Source: Nitrospiraceae bacterium
GTDB lineage: Bacteria; Nitrospirota; Nitrospiria; Nitrospirales; UBA2166
NCBI GenBank assembly: GCA_002726235.1
Contig: PBSN01000007.1
Coordinates: 1-64,000, forward strand
Reading direction: 5' to 3'
Length of the DNA: 64,000 bases
A model generated the notes under the pieces. The model did no database searches. It was not told the origin of the DNA and worked only from the letters and a program-made list of their open reading frames with translations. The position numbers were made by a program, and so were the translations under genes. Shown here piece by piece: positions 1 through 12,038 of this stretch. Position 1 is the first letter of the stretch. Every line of letters begins with the position of its first letter.

Positions 1-195
1 CAGGAGCAATCCTCCTGAGAGGGCGTGAGCCTGAGCATATTCCAGGGTCTCCACATGATCGTAAATTGAGATCGAGAGCACCTTTGTTTTTCCTGGGATG
101 CTTCCTCCTACCATCAACACTACTCCGAACTCACCGAGGGTATGTGCGAATCCTAAGACTGTTGCTGTGATGTATCCACGCAATGCCAACGGCAG
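1..195 (-). pseudogene. modB: 3' fragment of molybdate ABC transporter permease (modB), cut by the window edge
   Basis: Reading leftward from base 195, 65 codons run open to the window edge and match the conserved C-terminal half of ModB, the membrane permease of the molybdate ABC transporter ([48 protein letters not shown]). Upstream of base 195 the frame continues only into unrelated codons and no other frame gives the expected N-terminal membrane helices. I therefore read this as a 5'-truncated remnant joined to foreign or degraded sequence near 195. The rest of the reading frame lies outside the window, so intactness of the 3' end is unknown. The family call is secure; the pseudogene status is inference. 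Confidence 0.7.
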
Positions 196-953: not shown

Positions 954-1460
954 TCAGTCCTCGTTTGCTATGAGTCGTCGCTTCAGAATCCACATTTCGT
1001 ACAGCGGAAGAGTGGACATCAGTACAAAGCTACTAATCATGAAGAAATCCCCCAAAAGCAAGGTGAGCGCAAAGACTTCAGAAACGTACAGGATCAACCA
1101 GGGAGAAAGAAGATCGAGGCCGACGCCTGTGAATGACATATAAGCCATGGTAATCTTGAGCCATCTGGGCGCCATAGTGAGGAAAAAAATATGGACGATG
1201 ATGAGGAAGACGATGGGCATTGTAAACAGGTGAAAGTGGGTGATTTCGGCTAATTCATGAAACGATTTTGGTTCACCGAAGGTGGCATCAGATCCGAGGT
1301 AGTGGGTGATGACGCCGTCATAGGACAACCCGTTCATCGTATAGGCCCAGTAGAGGGTGAGCGCAAATCCGATACCAACGATGCTGACGAAGAAGGTATA
1401 GACCAAGCGAATTTGGCGATCAGTATCCAGCAGCCTGAAGCGAGTGTTAAAGTTGCGCAT
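954..1460 (-). CDS. Small four-helix membrane protein, partner of the FMN-binding protein
   Basis: The product is 168 aa with four predicted membrane helices (about 20-42, 75-96, 107-130, 133-158). Helix 2 carries histidines 75, 77 and 90, and another, His68, precedes it, a pattern compatible with b-type haem or metal binding. I do not recognise a named family. It follows the FMN-binding gene directly: that gene's stop overlaps the region just upstream, and ATG 1460 sits behind GGAAATTGAAG. The tight coupling suggests an electron-transfer pair, with this protein as membrane anchor or quinone/haem side of a small reductase. That role is inference; the membrane topology is seen directly. Confidence 0.7.
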   Translation of the reverse strand: MRNFNTRFRLLDTDRQIRLVYTFFVSIVGIGFALTLYWAYTMNGLSYDGVITHYLGSDATFGEPKSFHELAEITHFHLFTMPIVFLIIVHIFFLTMAPRWLKITMAYMSFTGVGLDLLSPWLILYVSEVFALTLLLGDFFMISSFVLMSTLPLYEMWILKRRLIANED

Positions 1461-1462
1461 CT

Positions 1463-2161
1463 TCAATTTCCAAATAATCGATTAAAAAATCCCCGAGACG
1501 TTTTCTTCTTGTGTTCAATGGCGCCACATGGCGTTCCCTGCGGATTCAAGTAGAGTTCCTCGGTCAACACCAACGCCCGTTTTACCCCAGCGCTTGCCGA
1601 CCGGACTGACATCGTTGCCCCAGTGATGTTAATAATGTCCCGATTAATTCTGATCGGATCGTCTGATTGTTTGCCTTTGTATTGGTACATAAACCGGGGC
1701 TTGCGAATATCGGCACCACGGCTCTCTCGATAGATGAGCATCTCTACCTGGGAGACTTTGCCGGAAGGTGTGATCCCTACCATGTAAGTCATCGGGCGGT
1801 ACTTCCCAATGGTGTTTTGAATGGATGTGTATCCATCAATGGTGCCGTCTGTTTCACCGATAAAAAACTCAAAACTCGTTTCTGGGAATTTCCAGCCGAT
1901 GCGGCGCTCAATACAGGATTTTTGCTCAGGGGTAATCTTCCTGCTTTCCGCTTGAATAGTCTTGGATTGGGGGAGGAGCAATTTTAATGCTTCGTCTTCG
2001 GTTAGGTAGACGACTTCCTTCCCGATTTCTTGGGTTGTGAGCCACCGTCCGAGCTCTTCATCAAAGATTCGGTCGCGTATTTCCGCTCCATAGGATTGTG
2101 GTATTGCTTGGGTAGATAGGAGGAGGATCACGGCGATGATAGTGAACAGTGGGTGAGACAT
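1463..2161 (-). CDS. Exported FMN-binding domain protein
   Basis: The product is 232 aa. The start at 2161 gives a clean signal peptide (about residues 1-25, ending SYGA); an upstream in-frame start at 2296 would bury it. Residues about 110-205 form an FMN_bind domain of the RnfG/NqrC type, with TGATMS at 180-185 resembling the motif to which ApbE attaches FMN through a phosphodiester bond. The protein would act in the periplasm as a one-electron carrier. It is followed immediately by the four-helix membrane protein, and a lipoprotein and porin lie upstream on the same strand. Iron reduction or respiratory electron transfer are plausible jobs, but the substrate cannot be told from sequence. 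Confidence 0.75.
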   Translation of the reverse strand: MSHPLFTIIAVILLLSTQAIPQSYGAEIRDRIFDEELGRWLTTQEIGKEVVYLTEDEALKLLLPQSKTIQAESRKITPEQKSCIERRIGWKFPETSFEFFIGETDGTIDGYTSIQNTIGKYRPMTYMVGITPSGKVSQVEMLIYRESRGADIRKPRFMYQYKGKQSDDPIRINRDIINITGATMSVRSASAGVKRALVLTEELYLNPQGTPCGAIEHKKKTSRGFFNRLFGN

Positions 2162-2300
2162 TATATGGTTCGACAGTCTCGTTTTTTCCGGCGATTGGCA
2201 ATGCGTGAGAGCACGTGATGTTTGACTGCAGGTAACGCCGGTGTATGAAGCCAGCGTAGAGAGAGAGGTGTTGCCATGGGGATAACCCACACGCACCGTG

Positions 2301-2762
2301 TTAGATGGGATGGCATCCGTGTTTTTTGAGGCGTTGCTGGATGGTGTTCAGGATTCGACGTTCAACGTGGGGCGATCCATCGACCGGGAACCACCGCAGT
2401 GCTTTCACTCCGCTGAGGGGATGTTCTTGTCGAACGTGAATAACGCGGATGGTCGATACATCGTGATCATCAATGATTTTTACGAATAGACTGGAGCGTT
2501 CTTGCGTAAGTTTTCGCCCAAACGCTCCGACGCCTTGCTTCGACATGCCTTTTTCCCAATCGGTCTCGAGGACACCGGAGGATTTGTCGGCCGTGATCAG
2601 CGTGGCGCGTTCGAGTACCATGAGGCTCTCGTCCCACACCGTGTCGTACTGACAGCGAACGGTCGAGGTTTGCCCTCCGGAGAGACTGGCGCAACCAATG
2701 AGTAGGCTCGGGAGAATTATGGTGCTGGCGAATCGAAACAATGAATAGCTTCTGCTCATCAT
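2301..2762 (-). CDS. Hypothetical outer-membrane or periplasmic lipoprotein
   Basis: The product is 153 aa with a lipoprotein signal peptide: charged start, hydrophobic core, and lipobox LIGC with the acylated cysteine at residue 24. The mature part is small and soluble, with alternating charged and hydrophobic stretches resembling a BamC/NlpB-like fold, though I cannot assign it to a family. It sits 21 bases downstream of the porin gene on the same strand and about 140 bases upstream of the FMN-binding gene, so it is probably co-transcribed with the porin. Either of the two leading methionines could start it; no strong ribosome site decides. Confidence 0.65.
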   Translation of the reverse strand: MMSRSYSLFRFASTIILPSLLIGCASLSGGQTSTVRCQYDTVWDESLMVLERATLITADKSSGVLETDWEKGMSKQGVGAFGRKLTQERSSLFVKIIDDHDVSTIRVIHVRQEHPLSGVKALRWFPVDGSPHVERRILNTIQQRLKKHGCHPI

Positions 2763-2783
2763 CTTGTCTTCTGGTGTATTGTG

Positions 2784-4133
2784 TCAGAAGTACGTCGCGA
2801 CGGAAAGGACAATTCCATCGTTCATGACGTCTCGTCCGGTAATGCGGTTGGGCTCGAAATTGTACTGGTATTCAAATTTGAACACGGTATCCTCTGTTGG
2901 CCGGAAATTGATTCCTGGAGTAATCCGAAATACATCGCCTTCCAGTCCCGGAGTATCGAGGTTCGTGTTCACATCGTCAACCCGAAAAACTCCCGTAAAA
3001 ATGGAATCATCACTAAAATATTTTGGGGCCAGTTGTTGGATGAACGTCGGCATAAAGTGATAGTTGAATTGTCCATACCAGCCGAACATGCGTTCGGGGA
3101 GTCCGATGAACCGGCCATCGAGATCTCTGTCATTACCTTTAATTGTGGTATAAGCCGCCTCGCCTAAAAATTCCCACGGTCCCCGCATAAAGGTCCAGTC
3201 CAGGGCGCCGATAGTCAAGGGGCGTTTTGACTCAGGGTCGATCTTTGCATGATAGCCTGATACACCGAGTTCGACGCCTAGGATTGGGCTATAGGCCAAT
3301 CGGCCGACGAGAGCTTGGTTGTTATTGTTGTCCAGATTCAGACCAACGTCTGTGGTTTGCCAGCGAGCGCCAGCCAGCCCTCCGGCATCGGTGATTCGTG
3401 GAGTGCCATCCTTGGAAAATCCATTCATGCCTTGCGTTATATAGACCTCGTAATCTAGCTTGGAGAGTCGGGTGGGATAGAAGGTTCCAAAAACTCCTAC
3501 TCCAGGCTCACGCAGTACGCCGGGAATGACCCTGAGAGTTACTTCTGGGCGTTGTGTGAGATCGTTGATGGGAGAATCGTGGACCAGATTGAATTTGCCG
3601 ACCGGAAGGAGTATGACTCCGGCACGGAAATTGATCCACTCCGCAAAGGAGTGGTCGATGACCGCAAATTCCAGTTCTGCTTCGCCGATGCCATGTTCAA
3701 CTTCGAGTTCGGCAGCCATGCGGGTGTTTTCTGTGACATCAGAATAGATAAAGGGCACAAAACGAGTTTGATCAAAGCTAGCGTTTGGATTTCGGCGAGC
3801 ATTAGTGGGACCCTTTAGGTTGGCATATTCGAGGTCCATATACCCGCCAATTACTGCGCGGGGGTTGCTGTAGCCGGGTCTTGCATAGATGAGACCGCCA
3901 CTGCCGCCGTAGCGTAAGCCTGCTGCCTGGGCTTTGCGTTTTTGTTGTTGGTCTTCTAGGTCATGGTCGGCCAGCTCATGTTGTAGTAATTCATCGCTGA
4001 GCTTCTCGAGTTTTTTAATGCGCTCCTCAAGTGATAGTTCTTTTTCATCTTCAGCACCGACTGTTGGGGCAAATCCAAACATTAATAGTGCTGTCAGGAT
4101 CGCGATGGTGCATGATGTGCGCCTATGTTTCAC
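2784..4133 (-). CDS. Porin-like outer-membrane beta-barrel protein with N-terminal coiled coil
   Basis: The product is 449 aa. A signal peptide (cleavage after TVGA, about residue 27) is followed by a heptad-rich segment (about 30-68, LEERIKKLEKLSDELLQ) typical of porins that anchor to peptidoglycan or trimerise. The remainder has the amphipathic alternation of a beta barrel and ends VSVATYF, with the terminal phenylalanine recognised by the BAM machinery. It starts with GTG behind GAGGAGG. It resembles phosphate-selective (OprO/P) or general porins, but the solute is unknown. Its place at the head of an operon with a lipoprotein and an FMN-binding protein suggests a role in nutrient or metal entry. 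Confidence 0.7.
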   Translation of the reverse strand: MKHRRTSCTIAILTALLMFGFAPTVGAEDEKELSLEERIKKLEKLSDELLQHELADHDLEDQQQKRKAQAAGLRYGGSGGLIYARPGYSNPRAVIGGYMDLEYANLKGPTNARRNPNASFDQTRFVPFIYSDVTENTRMAAELEVEHGIGEAELEFAVIDHSFAEWINFRAGVILLPVGKFNLVHDSPINDLTQRPEVTLRVIPGVLREPGVGVFGTFYPTRLSKLDYEVYITQGMNGFSKDGTPRITDAGGLAGARWQTTDVGLNLDNNNNQALVGRLAYSPILGVELGVSGYHAKIDPESKRPLTIGALDWTFMRGPWEFLGEAAYTTIKGNDRDLDGRFIGLPERMFGWYGQFNYHFMPTFIQQLAPKYFSDDSIFTGVFRVDDVNTNLDTPGLEGDVFRITPGINFRPTEDTVFKFEYQYNFEPNRITGRDVMNDGIVLSVATYF

Positions 4134-4241
4134 AATAGCCTCCTCGTAAACAATATTCAGTAATCAGTGCTAAGGTCTAAGTAAGACAGTAAAAGTGCAG
4201 GTATGCATAATCTGGTGCGTAGTATTTTCGGCATTGTTTTC

Positions 4242-5870
4242 TTACTGTTGGCTGATTGGGGTGCTCTTCCGAGAGTCTTCACGCGTTCCACAATAAGAAA
4301 ACAATGACAATGTTGAAAACCACGGTTCCACATATCTGGAACGTCTGAACGTCGTGAGATAGTCGAAACAGTAGTATTTCGAGAGTTTCTGTCCCAGCTT
4401 TGAACTGAACAGCACGGTGCCTTGGAATTCGGCTGCACGCACCACGGCAGCAACCTCATTCAATCCGCGTGCGCGCGCGACATCAAATTCCGGCGCATGA
4501 TAGGCGAACAGTCGTTGGGTCTCCCAGGTAAACACGCTGGTCTCTTCGGGATCAAAGTGGGTTTTGACATGTTCGACAAATGCACTTTGTGGAGGCATTG
4601 TCTCGGCGTAGGCCTTGACCAGGGGGAAGGTGATCAGGCTTGAAAAGATAACTGCCAGAGTGCCAATTGCGGGAGCAACTAATTTCAGCTTGGTATTGCC
4701 CCACTGGAACATCAAAACACCGATAGTCACGCCAGCCAGTGGGTAGAGAAAGAGGATAGGCGGAAGCGCATGGCGTGGGCGTTCCGGGTTTTGACCGATG
4801 AGGATCCATACTAGGTATGGTGCGATCAGTGCACCAACACTCAGCATCGCCGGACGTATTGGCTTGTGAAGCATTGCCCACAACAAGAGGAGACAAAAAC
4901 TGATTGAGAAAGGCACTCTCCATATGTTTTGTGGTGCTTCCGGCCAATATCCTCCAAGCGAAAACGCCCAGATTCCCCACCACCATGTCATGTACCGGCC
5001 CAACCCGATCTCGTCCGAAAAGACTGTGCCTCCCCAGCGGGTGAAGTGTCCGGTACTAAAGTGAATACTTGACTGAATCAATTCTGCCGATCCGGTGTGG
5101 AGGATAAGTGGGAGGATCCATACGCAAGTCCCTATTCCAAGGCCTCCACATCCCCAGAGTGCCAATTCCTTGAAACGGGTTGGCCGTTGTATGAGTATGA
5201 TGAGGGCACACCCTAGGACAAACGGCCAGTAACTCAATCGTGTTCCAAGAACTAGGCCCATCAATGCTCCTGTAGTGCCAACCCACCACAAGGAGGAAGA
5301 TCGTTTGGCGCTGGGGTAGAGTGCGTAGGTCAGTGTAAGGGCGACCCAGGGGAGGAGGGAGCACCCAAGCGCATCGCTGAGAGGTTTTTCGGCTTGTAGC
5401 CATAGGCCGGGACTCAGGAGATATAAGCTGACTGCGGTCACTCCAGCCCAGAGCACAATTCCCGACGTGGCATCATTTAAATAAGGGGAAAGGGAAGACT
5501 TTGTTGCATAACAGGAACGATCGTTCTCATTTGGTGGGGGAGGAGGGGTGATGCACCGCTTAGTCCAGTGCGAGGCGAGTAAGGCGATTGGAATCACTGC
5601 GAGTGTGCTGAAAACGATGCCAGGGAGAATCAAGGCGGTGGTGTCCTGCATGACGGTGGGTCGGATCGCCCATTGGAAGCTTTTTGCCAACGCGATGTAA
5701 ACTGGATAGCCTGGGAGGTGTGGTTGATGTTTTGCAAGATCAAACTCATGGAGCGCGAGAGCAAAGTCTACAGCGTCCCAACCTTCCAGATAGTGGCCTC
5801 GGTATAACCAGCGAAGGGTCCCTCCTGCCACAACCAAGCACAACAAAAATGATGTATATGTCCGTCTCAT
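4242..5870 (-). CDS. Polytopic membrane protein, GT-C glycosyltransferase-like
   Basis: The product is 542 aa with roughly ten membrane helices. The first periplasmic loop carries EGWDAVDFAL near residue 30, matching the acidic D-x-x-D style motif of GT-C glycosyltransferases that use polyprenyl-linked sugars. The C-terminal third is a soluble segment. This layout fits the ArnT/PMT-like superfamily, but no closer family is recognisable, so donor and acceptor are unknown. It stands between the porin operon and the P19-like genes on the same strand, with about 40 bases to the next gene upstream and 108 bases to the porin start downstream. It may glycosylate a surface protein or lipid; that is inference. 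Confidence 0.6.
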   Translation of the reverse strand: MRRTYTSFLLCLVVAGGTLRWLYRGHYLEGWDAVDFALALHEFDLAKHQPHLPGYPVYIALAKSFQWAIRPTVMQDTTALILPGIVFSTLAVIPIALLASHWTKRCITPPPPPNENDRSCYATKSSLSPYLNDATSGIVLWAGVTAVSLYLLSPGLWLQAEKPLSDALGCSLLPWVALTLTYALYPSAKRSSSLWWVGTTGALMGLVLGTRLSYWPFVLGCALIILIQRPTRFKELALWGCGGLGIGTCVWILPLILHTGSAELIQSSIHFSTGHFTRWGGTVFSDEIGLGRYMTWWWGIWAFSLGGYWPEAPQNIWRVPFSISFCLLLLWAMLHKPIRPAMLSVGALIAPYLVWILIGQNPERPRHALPPILFLYPLAGVTIGVLMFQWGNTKLKLVAPAIGTLAVIFSSLITFPLVKAYAETMPPQSAFVEHVKTHFDPEETSVFTWETQRLFAYHAPEFDVARARGLNEVAAVVRAAEFQGTVLFSSKLGQKLSKYYCFDYLTTFRRSRYVEPWFSTLSLFSYCGTREDSRKSTPISQQ

Positions 5871-5910
5871 AGGTTCTCGTGTGAAATTTAGTGCATGTCG
5901 TTGAGCTTAC

Positions 5911-6672
5911 TTAGTAGGCGTATCCACCTCCGGTTGCTTCTTCCGTTGGCGGCAGGGGCACTCCTCCTCCTGTTCCTCCTTGACTACTGCCGATGGTCTT
6001 GAAGTCGCCGAGGAGAAAGCCGCCTGTCACGACTACTGGGTCTGTTCCAAATACTGATCCAGAACGCTCGTGTGTTGGCGAGATATCTGATCGCATTGCA
6101 ATTCCGGGAGAAATTGCCGATTGGTTGGAGCTTCCGGCCTGGGCGGGAGCAGTGATGGTGACTTTCGCATCGTACCCTGCCTCGGAGGCTTTCAGTGTGT
6201 CAACTAAAGCGATATTTCTCGCGTAATGGAATCCTTCAGCAATACCCACGTGCGGAACAAGGGTTGTATCGAGAGATTTGCCCGTATCGCGATTTGTTAG
6301 TTTGAGGTTGACGTTTAGGTAGGGAACAAATTCGCCTTCAGCTTTGCCACCAAGAACAGCGCCAGAATACCGGATTTGTGCTTCAAAATGTATGTCGGCT
6401 GCTGTTTTTGGGGTAAGGGGTCCCCCTACTGGTTCAGCTGGTTCAAGAATCATGTCTGGGGGAGCTACTTCTAAGGTGATGGTCATATTGCCGCTAGATG
6501 CCGGCGCGTCTTCTACTAGGACCAGCTCGCCTGTAAAGTTTGGAACGGTTTCAACTGCAGGGGGGACATTACTGTCGCAACCTATTAACAGACTGAGAAT
6601 TCCAATCAAGCCCATTACCCGCACAAGCTGGCCTGCATATTTGTTCGAAGATGGTCTATGAGTCAGTATCAT
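5911..6672 (-). CDS. P19/Tp34-like periplasmic metal-binding lipoprotein
   Basis: The product is 253 aa. ATG 6672 is chosen because GAGGAG lies just upstream and it yields a lipoprotein signal with lipobox LIGC (Cys32). Residues about 45-180 resemble the P19/Tp34 family of periplasmic iron/copper-binding proteins: ADIHFEAQI, EFVPYLNVNLKLTNRDTGK, then TTLVPHVGIAEGFHYARNI. Two histidines that would correspond to metal ligands (His95 of DIH, His149 of HYARN) are present, while the usual methionine position reads VPH. The gene overlaps the 3' end of the preceding gene by 28 bases. P19 proteins work with FTR1 permeases, but none is in this window. Family assignment is by motif memory only. Confidence 0.6.
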   Translation of the reverse strand: MILTHRPSSNKYAGQLVRVMGLIGILSLLIGCDSNVPPAVETVPNFTGELVLVEDAPASSGNMTITLEVAPPDMILEPAEPVGGPLTPKTAADIHFEAQIRYSGAVLGGKAEGEFVPYLNVNLKLTNRDTGKSLDTTLVPHVGIAEGFHYARNIALVDTLKASEAGYDAKVTITAPAQAGSSNQSAISPGIAMRSDISPTHERSGSVFGTDPVVVTGGFLLGDFKTIGSSQGGTGGGVPLPPTEEATGGGYAY

Positions 6673-6700
6673 TGTTTTTTCTCCTCGCTTCAGCTTGGGA

Positions 6701-8269
6701 TCATGGAATAGTCGTTGGGTTGCCACGGCGGGTAGCAGTTAGGATATTGGCAAATGCTGAACTAAGACGCTGCATGAAGTCTTGTGCCTGCGTTTGCGTG
6801 AAAATGGCCTGTTCTCGGTCGTCAATTGTTGTGGCATCAAAGTTTGGAGCAAGGTAATTGATATTACTGAAGAATGCCCTTGCTTCGGCGCGGGCTTTTC
6901 CAAATGCTTCGAGATCACCAGGGGCTTTCCCTCGCATACTGACGATTTCGTGGTAGACGGCGAGATAAAAGATTTGGGTCAGGCGAGTTTCGATAATACT
7001 GATGTGAGTCTGAATACCCGTTCCACCGCTCGCGATGGTGCTTGCCCCAGCTAAAAAGGCATTATCAATACTGTCTACCAGATCACAGTCGATATTGGCG
7101 GGAGTTCCAAACTCCGCCCCTTCGCAATTGCCCTCTCTGCTCGTCGCGGTTCCTCGGATAGCTTGCCAGAATGCCCAGGCCTCGTCCCAATTATGACCGG
7201 CACCTGAGATGGCGTCGATTTCCCCGGCAGGAACTTTTTCAATAACCTCATCAAATTCATGAAGCAGATTAAGGTAAAACATCCGTTGCGCACCCTTTTC
7301 GGCCCATTCGCCACATTCCATGGGAAAGATGGTGCCATTGACGTTGCAGTCGTTTCCGATTGGACGCTGGGCTAACGCATTTGCGACGTTATCTTCTGCT
7401 GAGGCTAATACAGCTGCCGTAAGGCCACGACTTGCTGCGTAGCGGCTCGGATCTTCGTATTTTATGAATGAGGTTTTGAGGTTTTCGCCAAATCCAGTAT
7501 CGGAGCCATACAGTATGCTCGCGGTCGCAAAATCTGGGAGTGCAGCATTCATTGTTTCGAAATTCGAGACAAGCGCTTGCTGTTTGTCAACGTTCCCTAT
7601 GGGCATTGTGGTGGCGGGTGGAACGCCAGTGGGTGCTATGCTCCCTGAACTTCCACTGGGAGTTTGAGGAACATTTCCTGAGCTGCCAAATGAGGTTACG
7701 GTGGTTAATATGGGGACTCCTCCAGTATCACGGAAGAGTGCAGATGGAGGTACGGCATCATAGTGAACTGCTAGAACGTTGTCTGAAAACATCGTGACTT
7801 CTAGGAGGTACTGATCGTTGAAGGGATTGCCGAGTGGATCAGATGAAGGAAGTGCCACGTTTGAACCATAGCTCCATCCCGCATCATTTCCGAGTGTAGG
7901 AACGAGATCAAACGCGAGGATTCCGGCTCCTGGATTCGAGCGATTTATAATCTGTACACGCATTCGCTGATACGGAATGAAGTCCCCGGCATTGCGAGCG
8001 CCAAACACTTGGGCTCGTTCCGCAAAGAGGCGTACTTGGAAATACATATCTGCCAGATTGTTGGAGACTTGTCCGTTAACAATAGCTGGAACGAGGGTGG
8101 TTACCTCGGCGATTTCAACCACTGCCTCAATCGTTTCTCCAAACAACTCCGCTTCGCCAAGTTCAATTGCAGAAACTGAGGGGGCCCGGGGATCTTTGGG
8201 GGCTTGTGCAAACGTGTGTGATGCCATGACAGTACATAGTAGGATCATGACGATTTGTATTTGTCTCAT
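6701..8269 (-). CDS. Secreted fusion: P19-like domain plus FEA1-like (low-iron-inducible) domain
   Basis: The product is 522 aa with a signal peptide (cleavage near AQA, residue 22). Residues about 40-170 look P19/Tp34-like (DMYFQVRLF, DFIPYQRMRVQIINR, FDLVPTLGNDAGWSYGSNVAL), but the ligand histidines are replaced by tyrosine/serine. A Gly/Ser/Pro/Thr-rich linker (about 185-228) leads to a helical domain (about 230-510) with ECGEWAEKG, HNWDEAWAFWQAI and four cysteines (308, 319, 382, 395). This second domain recalls FEA1, the low-iron-inducible periplasmic protein of algae that also occurs in bacteria. Start 8269 has AAGAAAGGA upstream. The downstream P19-like gene overlaps it. An iron-binding role is inference. 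Confidence 0.5.
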   Translation of the reverse strand: MRQIQIVMILLCTVMASHTFAQAPKDPRAPSVSAIELGEAELFGETIEAVVEIAEVTTLVPAIVNGQVSNNLADMYFQVRLFAERAQVFGARNAGDFIPYQRMRVQIINRSNPGAGILAFDLVPTLGNDAGWSYGSNVALPSSDPLGNPFNDQYLLEVTMFSDNVLAVHYDAVPPSALFRDTGGVPILTTVTSFGSSGNVPQTPSGSSGSIAPTGVPPATTMPIGNVDKQQALVSNFETMNAALPDFATASILYGSDTGFGENLKTSFIKYEDPSRYAASRGLTAAVLASAEDNVANALAQRPIGNDCNVNGTIFPMECGEWAEKGAQRMFYLNLLHEFDEVIEKVPAGEIDAISGAGHNWDEAWAFWQAIRGTATSREGNCEGAEFGTPANIDCDLVDSIDNAFLAGASTIASGGTGIQTHISIIETRLTQIFYLAVYHEIVSMRGKAPGDLEAFGKARAEARAFFSNINYLAPNFDATTIDDREQAIFTQTQAQDFMQRLSSAFANILTATRRGNPTTIP

Positions 8270-8451
8270 GCTATGAATGTCCTTTCTTTATTGACGCGAA
8301 AAACAATAAAATTTCGTCAGTTAGAATGTCTTCATGCTCTTGTCTTCCACGTCACTTCCAATATGGCTTTCTGGGGGATTTGTGTGTCATCCACAGATGG
8401 CATTGTCCGTATCTTCCTGTACACCCATTCCCGACTACGTGCGTTGATTCT

Positions 8452-9879
8452 CTATGTCGCAGTAAGCGCATCGATTTCAAGCAATGCCTTCTCGGTGCGA
8501 ATTGATTGGATATGTTTGAGGTTTCGTGAGCCTTGCATAATTTGATGTGCTGCTTCGATGCCCATTTCCATTGCCGTATCGAGGAAAATATACCTAAAGA
8601 TCCCCTGCCGTCCGCCGGTTAATACGTTCTCCATTTTTGCAACTTCTGCAAGGAGAGTATCCCTATCATGTTGATATCCAAGATGGTAGATGGGGTATCC
8701 GTGTTCGACCCACACGCTATGATGGTCGAGGGCAACCGAGTCAATGTTATATCCGAGTGATCGAAGCTCAAGGGACATTTCCTGAAATAGGGTGTTGCCA
8801 TCGGCCTCCCAGATTTTGTCACCGACTGAGCAGGGAATTTCCAGCATGATCGATGTTTTGCCTTGCGGCACCATTTCAGAGCTACGGCGTTTAGGTTCCT
8901 GGATGCGGCTCATCTTGTACTGGGGTTCCGCGATATACATCCAGGTGTTCTCGCTAAAATCTGGGATGTCGAGTGGGATGTTCAAAAAGCGAAGTGCGCG
9001 AGACCGCAGATTGCCAATCGCCGTTTCCACACCATTAGTTGATTGTGGAGCGATGTATCGTGCCAAGGCGGGCAGTGAAATTGTCGAAAATACCCATGAA
9101 CATGGCAGGAGGTATTCCTGGCCATCAACGTGATAGCGTACAGCCTTCACCCGGTTCCCGACGACGTCGAGGCCGGTCACGTCTGCTCCAAGGTGGATTA
9201 TGCCGCCTTCACGGCACATTCGGGAGGCCATTCGATCAAATAACTGGCCCATGCCAAGCCGTGGATAATAGTATCGGCGGGCATAGGTCCGAATTGGAGA
9301 TCGCCGCAAGCCAATGAGTCGCAATGCGGCATCGCCAAGATTGAGGAGAGAAATGCGTTGTGCCGCCCAGTCTGATGAAATTTGGGTGGGGGGGATGCCC
9401 CAGAGCTTTTCCGTGTACGGGCCGAAGAAGCGATCATAGAGCGGGCGGCCAAATCTGGCGGTCACCCAGCCTTCAAAATGCGATTCGTCACGTGGAGAGA
9501 TGCGGCGACGGATAAGTTCGCCCGCATACCCCAGCAAGGCCTTTAGGTTTAATCCAAGACCGAGATTCTCGACCAGATCTGGCGCGGACAGTGGATAGGC
9601 AAATCGTTTTCCGGAGTGCATCACGACAGATTTGCGCTCGGAGACGAGCATGTCGGCTCCCATCAGGTCGAGAATTCGGCTTGTGAGTTCTTGGTTTTGT
9701 GAAAGAAAGCGGTGTCCTCCAAGATCAAAACGATATTCGCCAAATGTATTTGTTGCGCAGAGTCCGCCGGGACGCGGCTCTCGCTCAAGGACCACGACAT
9801 CCCATCCTTGAGCGGCCAATTCCCACGCACAACTTAAGCCACAGGGACCGCCACCCAGTATGACAATAGGGTCTTTCAT
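8452..9879 (-). CDS. FAD-dependent oxidoreductase (protoporphyrinogen oxidase / UDP-galactopyranose mutase-like)
   Basis: The product is 475 aa. The N-terminus has the dinucleotide-binding motif IVILGGGPCGLSCAWEL followed by LEREPRPGG and a second motif FDLGGHRF, as in the protoporphyrinogen oxidase/amine oxidase/UGM superfamily. ATG 9879 overlaps the stop of the upstream ferredoxin gene (ATGA), so translation is coupled. The pair Bfd-type ferredoxin plus flavoenzyme suggests that electrons flow between the two. Members of this superfamily act on haem precursors, carotenoids or sugar nucleotides, and the sequence does not settle which. The Fur-like site upstream of bfd would place it under iron control. 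Confidence 0.7.
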   Translation of the reverse strand: MKDPIVILGGGPCGLSCAWELAAQGWDVVVLEREPRPGGLCATNTFGEYRFDLGGHRFLSQNQELTSRILDLMGADMLVSERKSVVMHSGKRFAYPLSAPDLVENLGLGLNLKALLGYAGELIRRRISPRDESHFEGWVTARFGRPLYDRFFGPYTEKLWGIPPTQISSDWAAQRISLLNLGDAALRLIGLRRSPIRTYARRYYYPRLGMGQLFDRMASRMCREGGIIHLGADVTGLDVVGNRVKAVRYHVDGQEYLLPCSWVFSTISLPALARYIAPQSTNGVETAIGNLRSRALRFLNIPLDIPDFSENTWMYIAEPQYKMSRIQEPKRRSSEMVPQGKTSIMLEIPCSVGDKIWEADGNTLFQEMSLELRSLGYNIDSVALDHHSVWVEHGYPIYHLGYQHDRDTLLAEVAKMENVLTGGRQGIFRYIFLDTAMEMGIEAAHQIMQGSRNLKHIQSIRTEKALLEIDALTAT

Positions 9880-10073
9880 CTGGTTTCCGTTTGGGTATGG
9901 GCAGTGCATTCTGCCGCGACCTGTATCAGATCCTCGATATTCTCAGCGCATCTCCCGCAGCAATCACGGTCGAGATCGAAAGCTGTGATAAGTGAATCGG
10001 GATCAGACCCGTGTTTTGACAATGCGCATTGCATCTTCCGGTCGGTGATTCCTTTACAGAGGCACAGATACAT
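9876..10073 (-). CDS. bfd: Bacterioferritin-associated ferredoxin-like [2Fe-2S] protein
   Basis: The product is 65 aa, the usual size of Bfd. It has the four-cysteine pattern of the BFD-like [2Fe-2S] domain: CLC near residue 4-6 and CCGRC near residue 38-42, with the typical opening MYLCLCKGITDRK. Bfd proteins dock on bacterioferritin and deliver electrons that release stored iron. The bacterioferritin gene is divergently transcribed 197 bases away. ATG 10073 follows GGAGAC. The downstream flavoenzyme overlaps by four bases and could be its reductase. A strong Fur-box match lies 18 bases upstream of the start, so repression by iron-loaded Fur is expected. Confidence 0.85.
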   Translation of the reverse strand: MYLCLCKGITDRKMQCALSKHGSDPDSLITAFDLDRDCCGRCAENIEDLIQVAAECTAHTQTETR

Positions 10074-10090
10074 GATGAAGTCTCCATATG

Positions 10091-10109
10091 GATAATGCTA
10101 ATGATTATG
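10091..10109. promoter_or_regulatory. Fur-box-like operator upstream of bfd
   Basis: The 19 bases match the classical Fur consensus GATAATGATAATCATTATC at 16 positions by my count, and the GATTATC that follows (to 10115) extends the array of hexamers. It sits 18 bases upstream of the bfd start and about 15 bases from the predicted bfr -35 element, so it could control both divergent genes. Confidence 0.75.
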
Positions 10110-10124
10110 ATTATCAATAATAGC

Positions 10125-10154
10125 TTTACGCGAAGGACTTGTCAAATCTATAAT
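10125..10154 (+). promoter_or_regulatory. Candidate sigma70 promoter for bacterioferritin
   Basis: TTTACG at 10125-10130 and a perfect TATAAT at 10149-10154 are separated by 18 bases. The start codon of bfr is about 115 bases downstream, so a leader of roughly 105 nt is implied. Confidence 0.45.
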
Positions 10155-10269
10155 GATTCTGCCCGTATTGACTTATAGTTGGCACAATCACATGAGGCCA
10201 CCATGTTTTCATACTTAATAAATTGCGAGGTGGCGTGGCCAAATACGTAGTGTTGACGGGAGGGATGTG

Positions 10270-10743
10270 ATGAAAGCAAAAAAAGGTGTTGTTGAGTATC
10301 TCAATAAACTTTTGACCAATGAGTTGACCGCAATCAATCAATATTTTCTCCATGCCGAGATGTGTGAGAACTGGGGGTATGATCGGCTGTATCACAAAAT
10401 TCGAGCCGAATCCGTTGACGAAATGAAACATGCAGAGGATCTTATCGAACACATTTTGTACCTGGAAGGCGTTCCCAACGTACAACGCCTTAACACCATT
10501 ACCATTGGGCAGACGGTCTTGGAACAACTCAAACTTGACCTGAAGGTGGAACAGGGAGCGGTGATCCTTTTCAACGAAGCAATTGCTCACTGTGTCAAGG
10601 TTGGGGATAACACCACGCGTAACAAACTGGAAGACATGCTGGAGTCCGAAGAGGGACACGTCGATTTCATCGAGACCCAACTTGAAACTATCAAGCAAGT
10701 TGGCCTCCAAAATTACCTCAGCCAGCAAATTAAGAACGACTAG
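10270..10743 (+). CDS. bfr: Bacterioferritin
   Basis: The product is 157 aa, the family length. It shows the ferritin four-helix signature with ferroxidase and haem residues in place: NELTAINQYFLHAEMC in helix A, ESVDEMKHAEDLIE in helix B (Glu-Met-Lys-His, where the Met is the axial ligand of the inter-subunit haem), and EEGHVDFIETQL in helix D. ATG 10270 is preferred over GTG 10267 because GGGAGG lies six bases upstream. Bfr oxidises and stores iron in a 24-subunit cage in the cytoplasm. The divergent bfd gene and the Fur-like site between them support an iron storage/release pair. Confidence 0.95.
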   Translation: MKAKKGVVEYLNKLLTNELTAINQYFLHAEMCENWGYDRLYHKIRAESVDEMKHAEDLIEHILYLEGVPNVQRLNTITIGQTVLEQLKLDLKVEQGAVILFNEAIAHCVKVGDNTTRNKLEDMLESEEGHVDFIETQLETIKQVGLQNYLSQQIKND

Positions 10744-11139: not shown

Positions 11140-11457
11140 TTACTCGTATTTGATGGCCAATCCGCGAGCGTCTGCTTGGCAGTGCAAGAGGAATGCCCAC
11201 CAACAGTTGTTGGCAATTTCTACATCAACCACGTCATCTGCACCCATTTCTTTCGCGGTCGCTGTAAGCTTGTTTAAAACGGCACCCTTGGAAATATCGG
11301 CAAATGGCATTGACCAGCCCGACACCTCAACTGTTCCTAGGACTTTATGCGGTTTTGTGATTGACTTTGAGTCGACACTCATCTGGGTCAAGGGGTAGGA
11401 ACATCCAACAAGAAATGCACTCGCGCAAATAATTGCAAGGAATTTTACGTTCATCAT
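11140..11457 (-). CDS. Small lipoprotein, paralogue of the next gene
   Basis: The product is 105 aa. ATG 11457 follows GGAGG with ideal spacing and gives a lipoprotein signal with lipobox LVGC. The mature domain contains TKPHKVLGTVEVSGW and MGADDVVDVEIANNCWW, which resembles the 'GA-D-V-V-V' core seen in small YbjQ-like periplasmic or surface proteins, but I cannot name the family. It is clearly related to the gene at 11490-11846, which shares the KPxK, EVSxW/EASxW, GADDxxDxxxxNNCxW and ADGLG/ADARGLA blocks at matching spacing. The two genes are adjacent on the same strand and probably arose by tandem duplication. Function unknown. Confidence 0.7.
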   Translation of the reverse strand: MMNVKFLAIICASAFLVGCSYPLTQMSVDSKSITKPHKVLGTVEVSGWSMPFADISKGAVLNKLTATAKEMGADDVVDVEIANNCWWAFLLHCQADARGLAIKYE

Positions 11458-11489
11458 GTATGCCTCCATATCGTTTGATCGTCTCGGCT

Positions 11490-11846
11490 TTACTGAGGAT
11501 TCGCCGCATCCTCATATTTCACAGCTACGCCGAGACCGTCGGCCCAGCATCTGATTACCTCTCCGATAGCGGGAACCACCGACCAATAACAGTTATTCTT
11601 TACCCTGATATCTAGAATGTCATCTGCTCCGAGAACATCTGCTTTTGTTCGCAGCGTGTGCATCATTTTTCCAACTGCAATCTCGCCAAAAAAAGCCCAC
11701 TCGGAGGCTTCAACGGTTTGCTGCCATTTGATTGGCTTATTCACAGTCTCGGAGGTAACAATTCCCATGGGTGCCATTGAATAGGAACAGGAAATCGTCG
11801 ACAAAGACAAAAACACCAAGCAACCGAATACATGCCATCGTGTCAT
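11490..11846 (-). CDS. Small lipoprotein, paralogue of the previous gene
   Basis: The product is 118 aa. ATG 11846 is chosen because GGAAGGAG lies just upstream and the protein then begins with a lipoprotein signal ending in a serine-rich lipobox (STISC). The mature part shares conserved blocks with its neighbour at 11140-11457, including GADDILDIRVKNNCYW, and an extra conserved cysteine near the end (IRCWADGLGVAVKYE). It lies 32 bases upstream of that neighbour and is likely co-transcribed. Nothing in the context indicates a substrate. Both are exported to the envelope by inference from the lipoboxes. Confidence 0.7.
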   Translation of the reverse strand: MTRWHVFGCLVFLSLSTISCSYSMAPMGIVTSETVNKPIKWQQTVEASEWAFFGEIAVGKMMHTLRTKADVLGADDILDIRVKNNCYWSVVPAIGEVIRCWADGLGVAVKYEDAANPQ

Positions 11847-12038
11847 AGGGTGGCTCCTTCCCTTGAAATATATCGGAGTAACTCTCAAGCGTCTTTCGCC
11901 TTCACATATGCATGAATTGTGTCATGATCTATCATGGTTCGTTGTTCATTGTAGCACAGCAACATTGCAGAAAAGAAAAGAAGCCATCGCCATTATCTAG
12001 CTGTCCGTTATTTTCGTTCCGTTAGATAGATCAATGGT

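Follow-up and report, generated by a model that had tools for sequence, protein, structure and literature searches.

A likely iron-acquisition region in a Nitrospirales genome joins a conserved FMN/porin gene set to P19 and FEA1 proteins

Introduction

Periplasmic P19 proteins take part in iron systems with an FTR1 permease, among them FetMP, Campylobacter P19 and FtrABCD. Here, we describe a region at positions 954 to 10743 of a 64,000-nucleotide stretch of DNA (the window) from a Nitrospiraceae bacterium (GenBank assembly GCA_002726235.1, contig PBSN01000007.1), in which genes for two P19-type proteins, one of them fused to an FEA1 domain, lie beside genes for a periplasmic flavin mononucleotide (FMN)-binding protein, a porin, and a small histidine-bearing membrane protein, sMP. 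We are confident that the region serves iron acquisition, and it is likely that iron enters through a nearby ATP-binding cassette (ABC) transporter.

Meheust et al. (2021; PMC8238504) counted 260 P19 gene clusters that include an FMN-binding gene and reported wider links between flavinylation and iron uptake. The P19-FTR1 systems, including these clusters, have in common with the window a PF10634 periplasmic protein found with an FMN_bind protein and an iron theme. In contrast to them, the genus of the window has no detected FTR1, carries a P19-FEA1 fusion, and places porin, lipoprotein, and sMP (family PF27139) genes in the same series; the published P19-FMN clusters are also mostly Gram-positive, unlike the set in the window (PMC8238504). 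Huang et al. (2024; PMC10979944) reported that DUF4405 and FezC are cytochromes related to flavinylation and ferrosomes. Algal Fea1 is covered in PMC4855317 and PMC7676907. Neisseria, which has FbpA and FbpBC, can use iron that pyrophosphate makes available, independently of TonB (PMC4189776). A first-pass annotation of the window had proposed a distinct iron uptake system. The iron role is supported by the neighborhood and by Fur-like boxes, but the pairing of FMN-binding and P19 genes is not new, given the 260 clusters (PMC8238504); what is new here is this variant of them.

Results and Discussion

Gene series and its conservation. The region consists of nine genes on the minus strand, with a divergent bacterioferritin gene at their head. 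In order, the series encodes a Bfd-like protein, a PRK07208-type flavin adenine dinucleotide (FAD) enzyme, the P19-FEA1 fusion, a stand-alone P19, a GT-C-like protein, the porin, a lipoprotein, the FMN_bind protein, and sMP; the spacing between neighbors runs from a 34-base overlap to a 182-base gap. Contig C7 (155,382 bases) of a 1.87-Mb draft genome, which is 90.65% complete, begins with the window. All ten genes are found in identical order, with 80-92% protein identity, in the metagenome-assembled genome UBA2166 of the same genus (locus L032). The nine same-strand genes behind the Fur-box-like site likely form one iron-uptake operon.

We found that the last four genes of the series recur as a set throughout the order, a pattern that the first-pass annotation had missed. 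In the window, these encode the outer-membrane porin (2784..4133, minus strand), likely OprO/P-like, which has orthologues across the order and PF07396 matches in 7 of 14 of them; a small protein (2301..2762, minus strand), likely a lipoprotein (IGCAS); the FMN_bind protein (1463..2161, minus strand; PF04205, 33.1 bits); and sMP (954..1460, minus strand). The lipoprotein, FMN_bind, and sMP genes are consecutive in 29/29 best-scoring loci outside the window's own genome, the lipoprotein orthologue always holding the same place. The porin gene is present in 28 of these 3.5-kb loci; G161, the remaining locus, has it at the contig end.

We examined wider neighborhoods at 19 loci from two other families of Nitrospirales, where representatives of the ApbE, ABC, ExbB, ExbD, TonB, and Fur calls were verified with Pfam. 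An apbE gene lies beside the porin/FMN set in 18 of the 19; locus L142 stops at a contig end, and L143, once extended by stretch L215, includes apbE, with no Fbp-type, Ton, or Fur gene in the 13 kb before it. The same loci carry genes for an Fbp-type ATPase (13 loci), an Fbp-type permease (12), bacterioferritin (10), ExbB (8), TonB (8), ExbD (7), and Fur (3), and none of the 19 has P19 or the FAD enzyme. The substrate-binding protein near the set is FbpA-like: it matches solved ferric-binding proteins (best E value, 8e-48), and N-x-Y-Y is present in 8 of 9 FbpA-like open reading frames (ORFs) of the order loci, the ninth being a short fragment. The permeases and ATPases tested against NCBIfam scored above no equivalog cut-off shown; thus, the ferric substrate is inferred from the binding protein and the neighbors.

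The region really is two modules joined, the order-wide FMN/porin set and a genus-restricted P19/FEA1 block. Other Nitrospirales have an NHYY FbpA-like protein, a two-domain permease, an ATPase, and often TonB/ExbBD near the FMN module, whereas in the genus of the window the P19-FEA1 and P19 genes occupy the place of the apbE/Fbp/Ton genes. We detected P19 in 3 of the 117 order genomes and FEA1 in 2, both in this genus. As for the conservation of the neighborhood, which the first-pass annotation had looked to, the FMN/porin set is widespread among Nitrospirales, whereas the P19/FEA1 block was found in 2 of the 4 genomes of the genus.

Fur-box-like sites, bacterioferritin, and the head of the series. 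Overlapping Fur-box-like sites with 2-3 mismatches to the 19-base consensus lie at 10091..10115, in the gap between bfr and the Bfd gene. We counted three overlapping matches there, versus 0.01 expected from shuffles, and 0/500 shuffles of the intergenic region reached the score, which bears out the site noted in the first-pass annotation. The equivalent gap in UBA2166 has a site with 3 mismatches, and the sequence upstream of fur-fbpB-fbpC in the window's own genome (L181) has one with 4; in both cases, 0/500 shuffles reached it. Counting a box in relatives when at most 5% of shuffles reached it, we found one upstream of the porin in 14 of 17 order loci with apbE and none in L148, L151, and L152. 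L215 has no Fur-like site at 5 or fewer mismatches. The best reading is that the region is under Fur control, as predicted from these sites. The iron-acquisition role is well supported because the order-wide neighbors (apbE, the Fbp-type ABC transporter, ExbB/ExbD/TonB, and bacterioferritin) and the Fur-like boxes point the same way.

The bacterioferritin gene (10267..10743, plus strand) matches TIGR00754 over its cut-off (190.3 bits) and PF00210. The Bfd-like [2Fe-2S] protein (9876..10073, minus strand), first in the series, matches PF04324 at 23.3 bits (cut-off, 26) and NF007803 at 21.1 bits, both below cut-off. Its gene overlaps that of the FAD enzyme, of the PRK07208/amine-oxidase type (8452..9909, minus strand; NF005547, 399.5 bits, over cut-off). 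Of the proposed coupling of Bfd to the flavoenzyme, the Bfd half is a weak match, and the gene overlap is the only sign of the coupling itself.

FMN_bind protein and ApbE. The FMN_bind protein has the motif TGATMS, and [ST]GA[ST]-x-S is present in 26/26 aligned FMN_bind sequences. From this motif, the periplasmic protein is predicted to be flavinylated by ApbE. One class-level relative (L154) combines ApbE and FMN_bind within one protein, a self-contained flavinylation unit, and four more FMN_bind relatives of ~500 residues were found (L155-L158). In the genus, ApbE is encoded in 3 of 4 genomes, at four places, none of which adjoins the porin/FMN set; it was not found in the window's own draft. 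We also observed in UBA2166 a second ApbE gene (L168; G201:C98) near thioredoxin-like and small lipoprotein genes, a neighborhood that resembles, by eye, published DUF3570/DUF4266 flavinylation clusters.

P19, the P19-FEA1 fusion, and FEA1 relatives. The stand-alone P19 (5911..6672, minus strand), Tp34/FtrA-like and likely a lipoprotein (IGCDS), matches PF10634 at 63.4 bits and FetP (3nrp) with an E value of 3.7e-10. The P19-FEA1 fusion (6701..8269, minus strand) matches PF07692 (29.9 bits; cut-off, 25) and PF10634 over their cut-offs, and in a predicted model (macfe62cc35c5) its N-terminal part folds like P19. Both families had been called from motifs; these calls, like those of FMN_bind and bacterioferritin, are now backed by profile matches that exceed the Pfam cut-offs or, for bacterioferritin, the NCBIfam cut-off. 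With green-algal FEA1 (PF07692) and the FEA1-related lipoproteins (NF038033), the fusion has the PF07692 match in common. It differs in being joined to a P19 domain and in scoring only 46.5 bits against the NF038033 cut-off of 250. Scoring the 7998 candidates that share the most words, we found 7 relatives besides the fusion itself, 1 of which lacks the P19 part.

The stand-alone P19 retains DIHFEA and FHYA, with His, Glu, and His at what we take to be the metal-site residues, read here as conserved alignment columns. The fused domain of the window species has DMYFQV and GWSYG, which puts Tyr, Gln, and Ser at these positions, and that of UBA2166 has DLHLQV and GWQYG. GWHYA is present in all five more distant full-length fusions, four of which keep the first histidine; the next residue is Glu in three of these and Asp in one.

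We scanned for FEA1 in a genome collection with one genome per species (84,980 species) and found 101 FEA1-type places, 80 of which were retrieved and 79 examined (all except UBA2166). PF07692 is matched by 53/53 FEA1-type proteins scanned, the window's included, at E values up to 0.5. Neighbors were counted within the fetched flanks, and since many contigs are short, these counts are lower bounds. FbpA-like genes are present at 18 and FbpB-like genes at 15 of the 38 Actinobacteria loci (mostly Acidimicrobiia), and at 4 and 0, respectively, of the 6 Chloroflexi loci; all 22 FbpA-like proteins, from 22 of these 44 loci, have NHYY. The 32 archaeal loci (mostly Marine Group II) have FecCD at 13, its binding protein at 14, and FbpA-like genes at 0. 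The 3 other loci have no FbpA-like, FbpB-like, or FecCD-type genes in their flanks. An origin of FEA1 in the imelysin/M75 family was considered but not adopted: at the sequence level, no M75 family was among those listed for the 53 members.

These neighbors bear on a reading in which P19 and FEA1 form a nonreductive ferric capture pair for an ABC transporter, while the role of the FMN protein is to preserve the site or clear oxidants, not to reduce iron for uptake. FEA1 lies near FbpA-like genes, and the ORFs called at the 79 loci have no blastp match to the window's FMN_bind protein. Furthermore, Fbp transporters take ferric iron, as is established (PMC4189776), and algal Fea1 was purified with ferric iron (PMC7676907). 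On the other hand, the iron genes of the order retain ApbE and FMN_bind near them, and the P19 clusters of PMC8238504 repeatedly contain FMN or thioredoxin-like genes. We consider nonreductive capture rather unlikely.

Inner-membrane permease. Searches for FTR1, FeoB, and ZIP in the four draft genomes of the genus found no matching gene. FTR1 (PF03239), which the first-pass annotation had found wanting in the window, has matches in 0/4 genus genomes as far as these drafts go, and within the order it was found in 14/117 genomes, all of one other genus, in open frames of 506-704 residues. FeoB_C was found in 0/117 genomes of the order. The 5 order genomes that lack an sMP match include two with FTR1 (G105 and G177).

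We found an FbpB homologue in 4/4 genus genomes. The genus has FbpB-FbpC after Fur with no adjacent FbpA (L181-L183), which sets it apart from known FbpABC transporters. In the window's own genome, fur-fbpB-fbpC stand at the end of contig C4, after modC. The window begins with a fragment of the molybdate permease gene modB (1..192, minus strand; 98% identity over 64 residues to UBA2166 ModB, which matches TIGR02141 over cut-off). C7 thus begins inside modB, C4 ends inside modC, and the orientations match. In UBA2166, contigs C92 and C33 have a 24-base end in common, which places modABC-fur-fbpB-fbpC after sMP. Read most simply, these contig ends place fur-fbpB-fbpC behind the operon and modABC, just past the window edge. 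Before the fragment at 1-192, modA and the start of modB are missing, owing either to a deletion or to faulty assembly where the contig ends. Because no FTR1 gene was found in the own draft genome, the ABC transporter is the likely uptake route. In the genus, the two FbpA-type relatives examined (L185 and L186) are without N-x-Y-Y, which leaves room for P19/FEA1 as the iron donor.

It is improbable that the region is instead a standard ferrous system of the P19 type, with its partner permease encoded elsewhere (Nramp-like, or an FTR1 missing from the draft) and the FMN module as a neighbor that serves another purpose. P19 does work with FTR1 in described systems (PMC8238504), the own genome is 90.65% complete, and it has an Nramp-like gene. 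However, that Nramp-like match is the single one among the four genus genomes, FTR1 matches in the order all come from another genus, and FEA1 relatives elsewhere are often near ferric-type ABC genes.

The membrane protein sMP. We found sMP matches in 70/198 Nitrospirota genomes and in 51/56 of the same order, own genome included. The AlphaFold model of this inner-membrane protein, of good confidence (pLDDT [predicted local distance difference test], 87.3), has four long helices. Glu72, His75, His77, and His90 are invariant in 66/66 aligned sequences, and the three histidines are all on one predicted helix. Foldseek found no solved relative at an E value of 0.001, and the VIA matches had middling Z scores, within the noise range for helical bundles. 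Like the flavinylation-associated cytochromes (PepSY-like, MsrQ-like, DUF4405, and FezC; PMC10979944), sMP is a small histidine-bearing membrane protein encoded beside an FMN_bind gene, with apbE near in the order; unlike them, it has four helices with three invariant histidines on one of them, and no sequence or fold match between the two was detected.

Distant relatives (L187-L204 and L162) are membrane proteins of ~200-270 residues that have the invariant H-x-H in common with sMP, many of them with an inserted CXXCH heme motif; of 20 distant relatives recovered in the phylum, 11 have this motif ahead of the H-x-H. This suggests, at the level of sequence, a role in electron transfer. Some genomes (G117, G060, and G119) encode both forms. 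A heme-copper oxidase ancestry, raised by VIA matches at 19-20% identity, was dropped: no COX1 Pfam match is listed among 28 relatives, and the PDB sequence matches include no oxidase and one weak cytochrome c (E value, 1.1), while the fold matches neither support nor exclude such an ancestry. The 4 genus genomes themselves gave no COX1 match.

The CXXCH motif, the many extracytosolic redox systems served by FMN_bind proteins (PMC8238504), and the absence of P19 from the set in 19/19 other loci examined would fit a module for respiratory or extracellular electron transfer, iron regulated but taking up no iron, but this is also quite unlikely, as the adjacent Fbp-type, TonB/ExbBD, and bacterioferritin genes and the Fur-like boxes point to assimilation.

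Proposed path of iron. According to the model that we favor, small ferric complexes would enter through the OprO/P-like porin; that ferric pyrophosphate is among them is only an idea, drawn by analogy. sMP would draw electrons from the quinol pool and reduce the covalently bound FMN of its neighbor, which in turn may reduce or strip ferric iron. P19 and P19-FEA1 would hold this iron in the periplasm and pass it to an ABC permease instead of FTR1, and FbpB-FbpC, probably encoded with Fur just past the window edge, would import it. Bacterioferritin would store the iron, and the Bfd-like protein would release it. We put the chances of this path as a whole, FMN reduction and ABC hand-over included, at about even. 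A bolder form of it remains tentative and somewhat doubtful: PF27139 would be a new class of membrane electron carrier for ApbE-flavinylated proteins, and in this genus P19/P19-FEA1 would replace FbpA and hand reduced or stripped iron to an FbpA-less FbpBC, a hybrid of a reductive and an ABC route.

Nitrospirales include major nitrite oxidizers. A module present in 51/56 of their genomes, with links to Fur, ApbE, and ferric transport, would identify the likely core iron route of the order, and flavinylated proteins would gain PF27139 as a new candidate membrane partner. That FEA1, a debated algal protein, lies near ABC genes of the FbpA-like or FecCD type in three groups of prokaryotes opens its role to direct tests. 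If FbpA is indeed replaced, FEA1 may generally serve the iron ABC transporters of bacteria and archaea as a periplasmic partner. None of the titles and abstract openings listed by searches of the open-access literature describes the set of Nitrospirales, or FEA1 of bacteria in the vicinity of Fbp genes.

Other features. The remaining gene of the series (4242..5870, minus strand) encodes a multipass membrane protein, GT-C glycosyltransferase-like (PF11028, 25.1 bits; cut-off, 24.2). It has no blastp match (E value, 0.001) among the ORFs called at the Actinobacteria FEA1 loci. In Actinobacteria (L033-L111), the neighbors of the FEA1 genes include LPG-synthase/GT2 fusions, an epimerase, and an FAD enzyme of the PRK07208 type, a hint that glycan modification may be linked to iron capture. 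By analogy, a part in glycan metabolism was considered for the FAD enzyme and the GT-C-like protein of the window. The FAD-enzyme family was found in 17 of the 38 Actinobacteria loci; three of these relatives tested below the NF005547 cut-off, whereas the window copy is above it. In five Actinobacteria loci (L052, L055, L093, L102, and L109), a membrane protein gene directly follows FEA1, and the L102 copy matches UPF0014 (PF03649). Downstream of bacterioferritin, at 11140-11888 of the window, are two neighboring small lipoprotein-like genes, related by eye.

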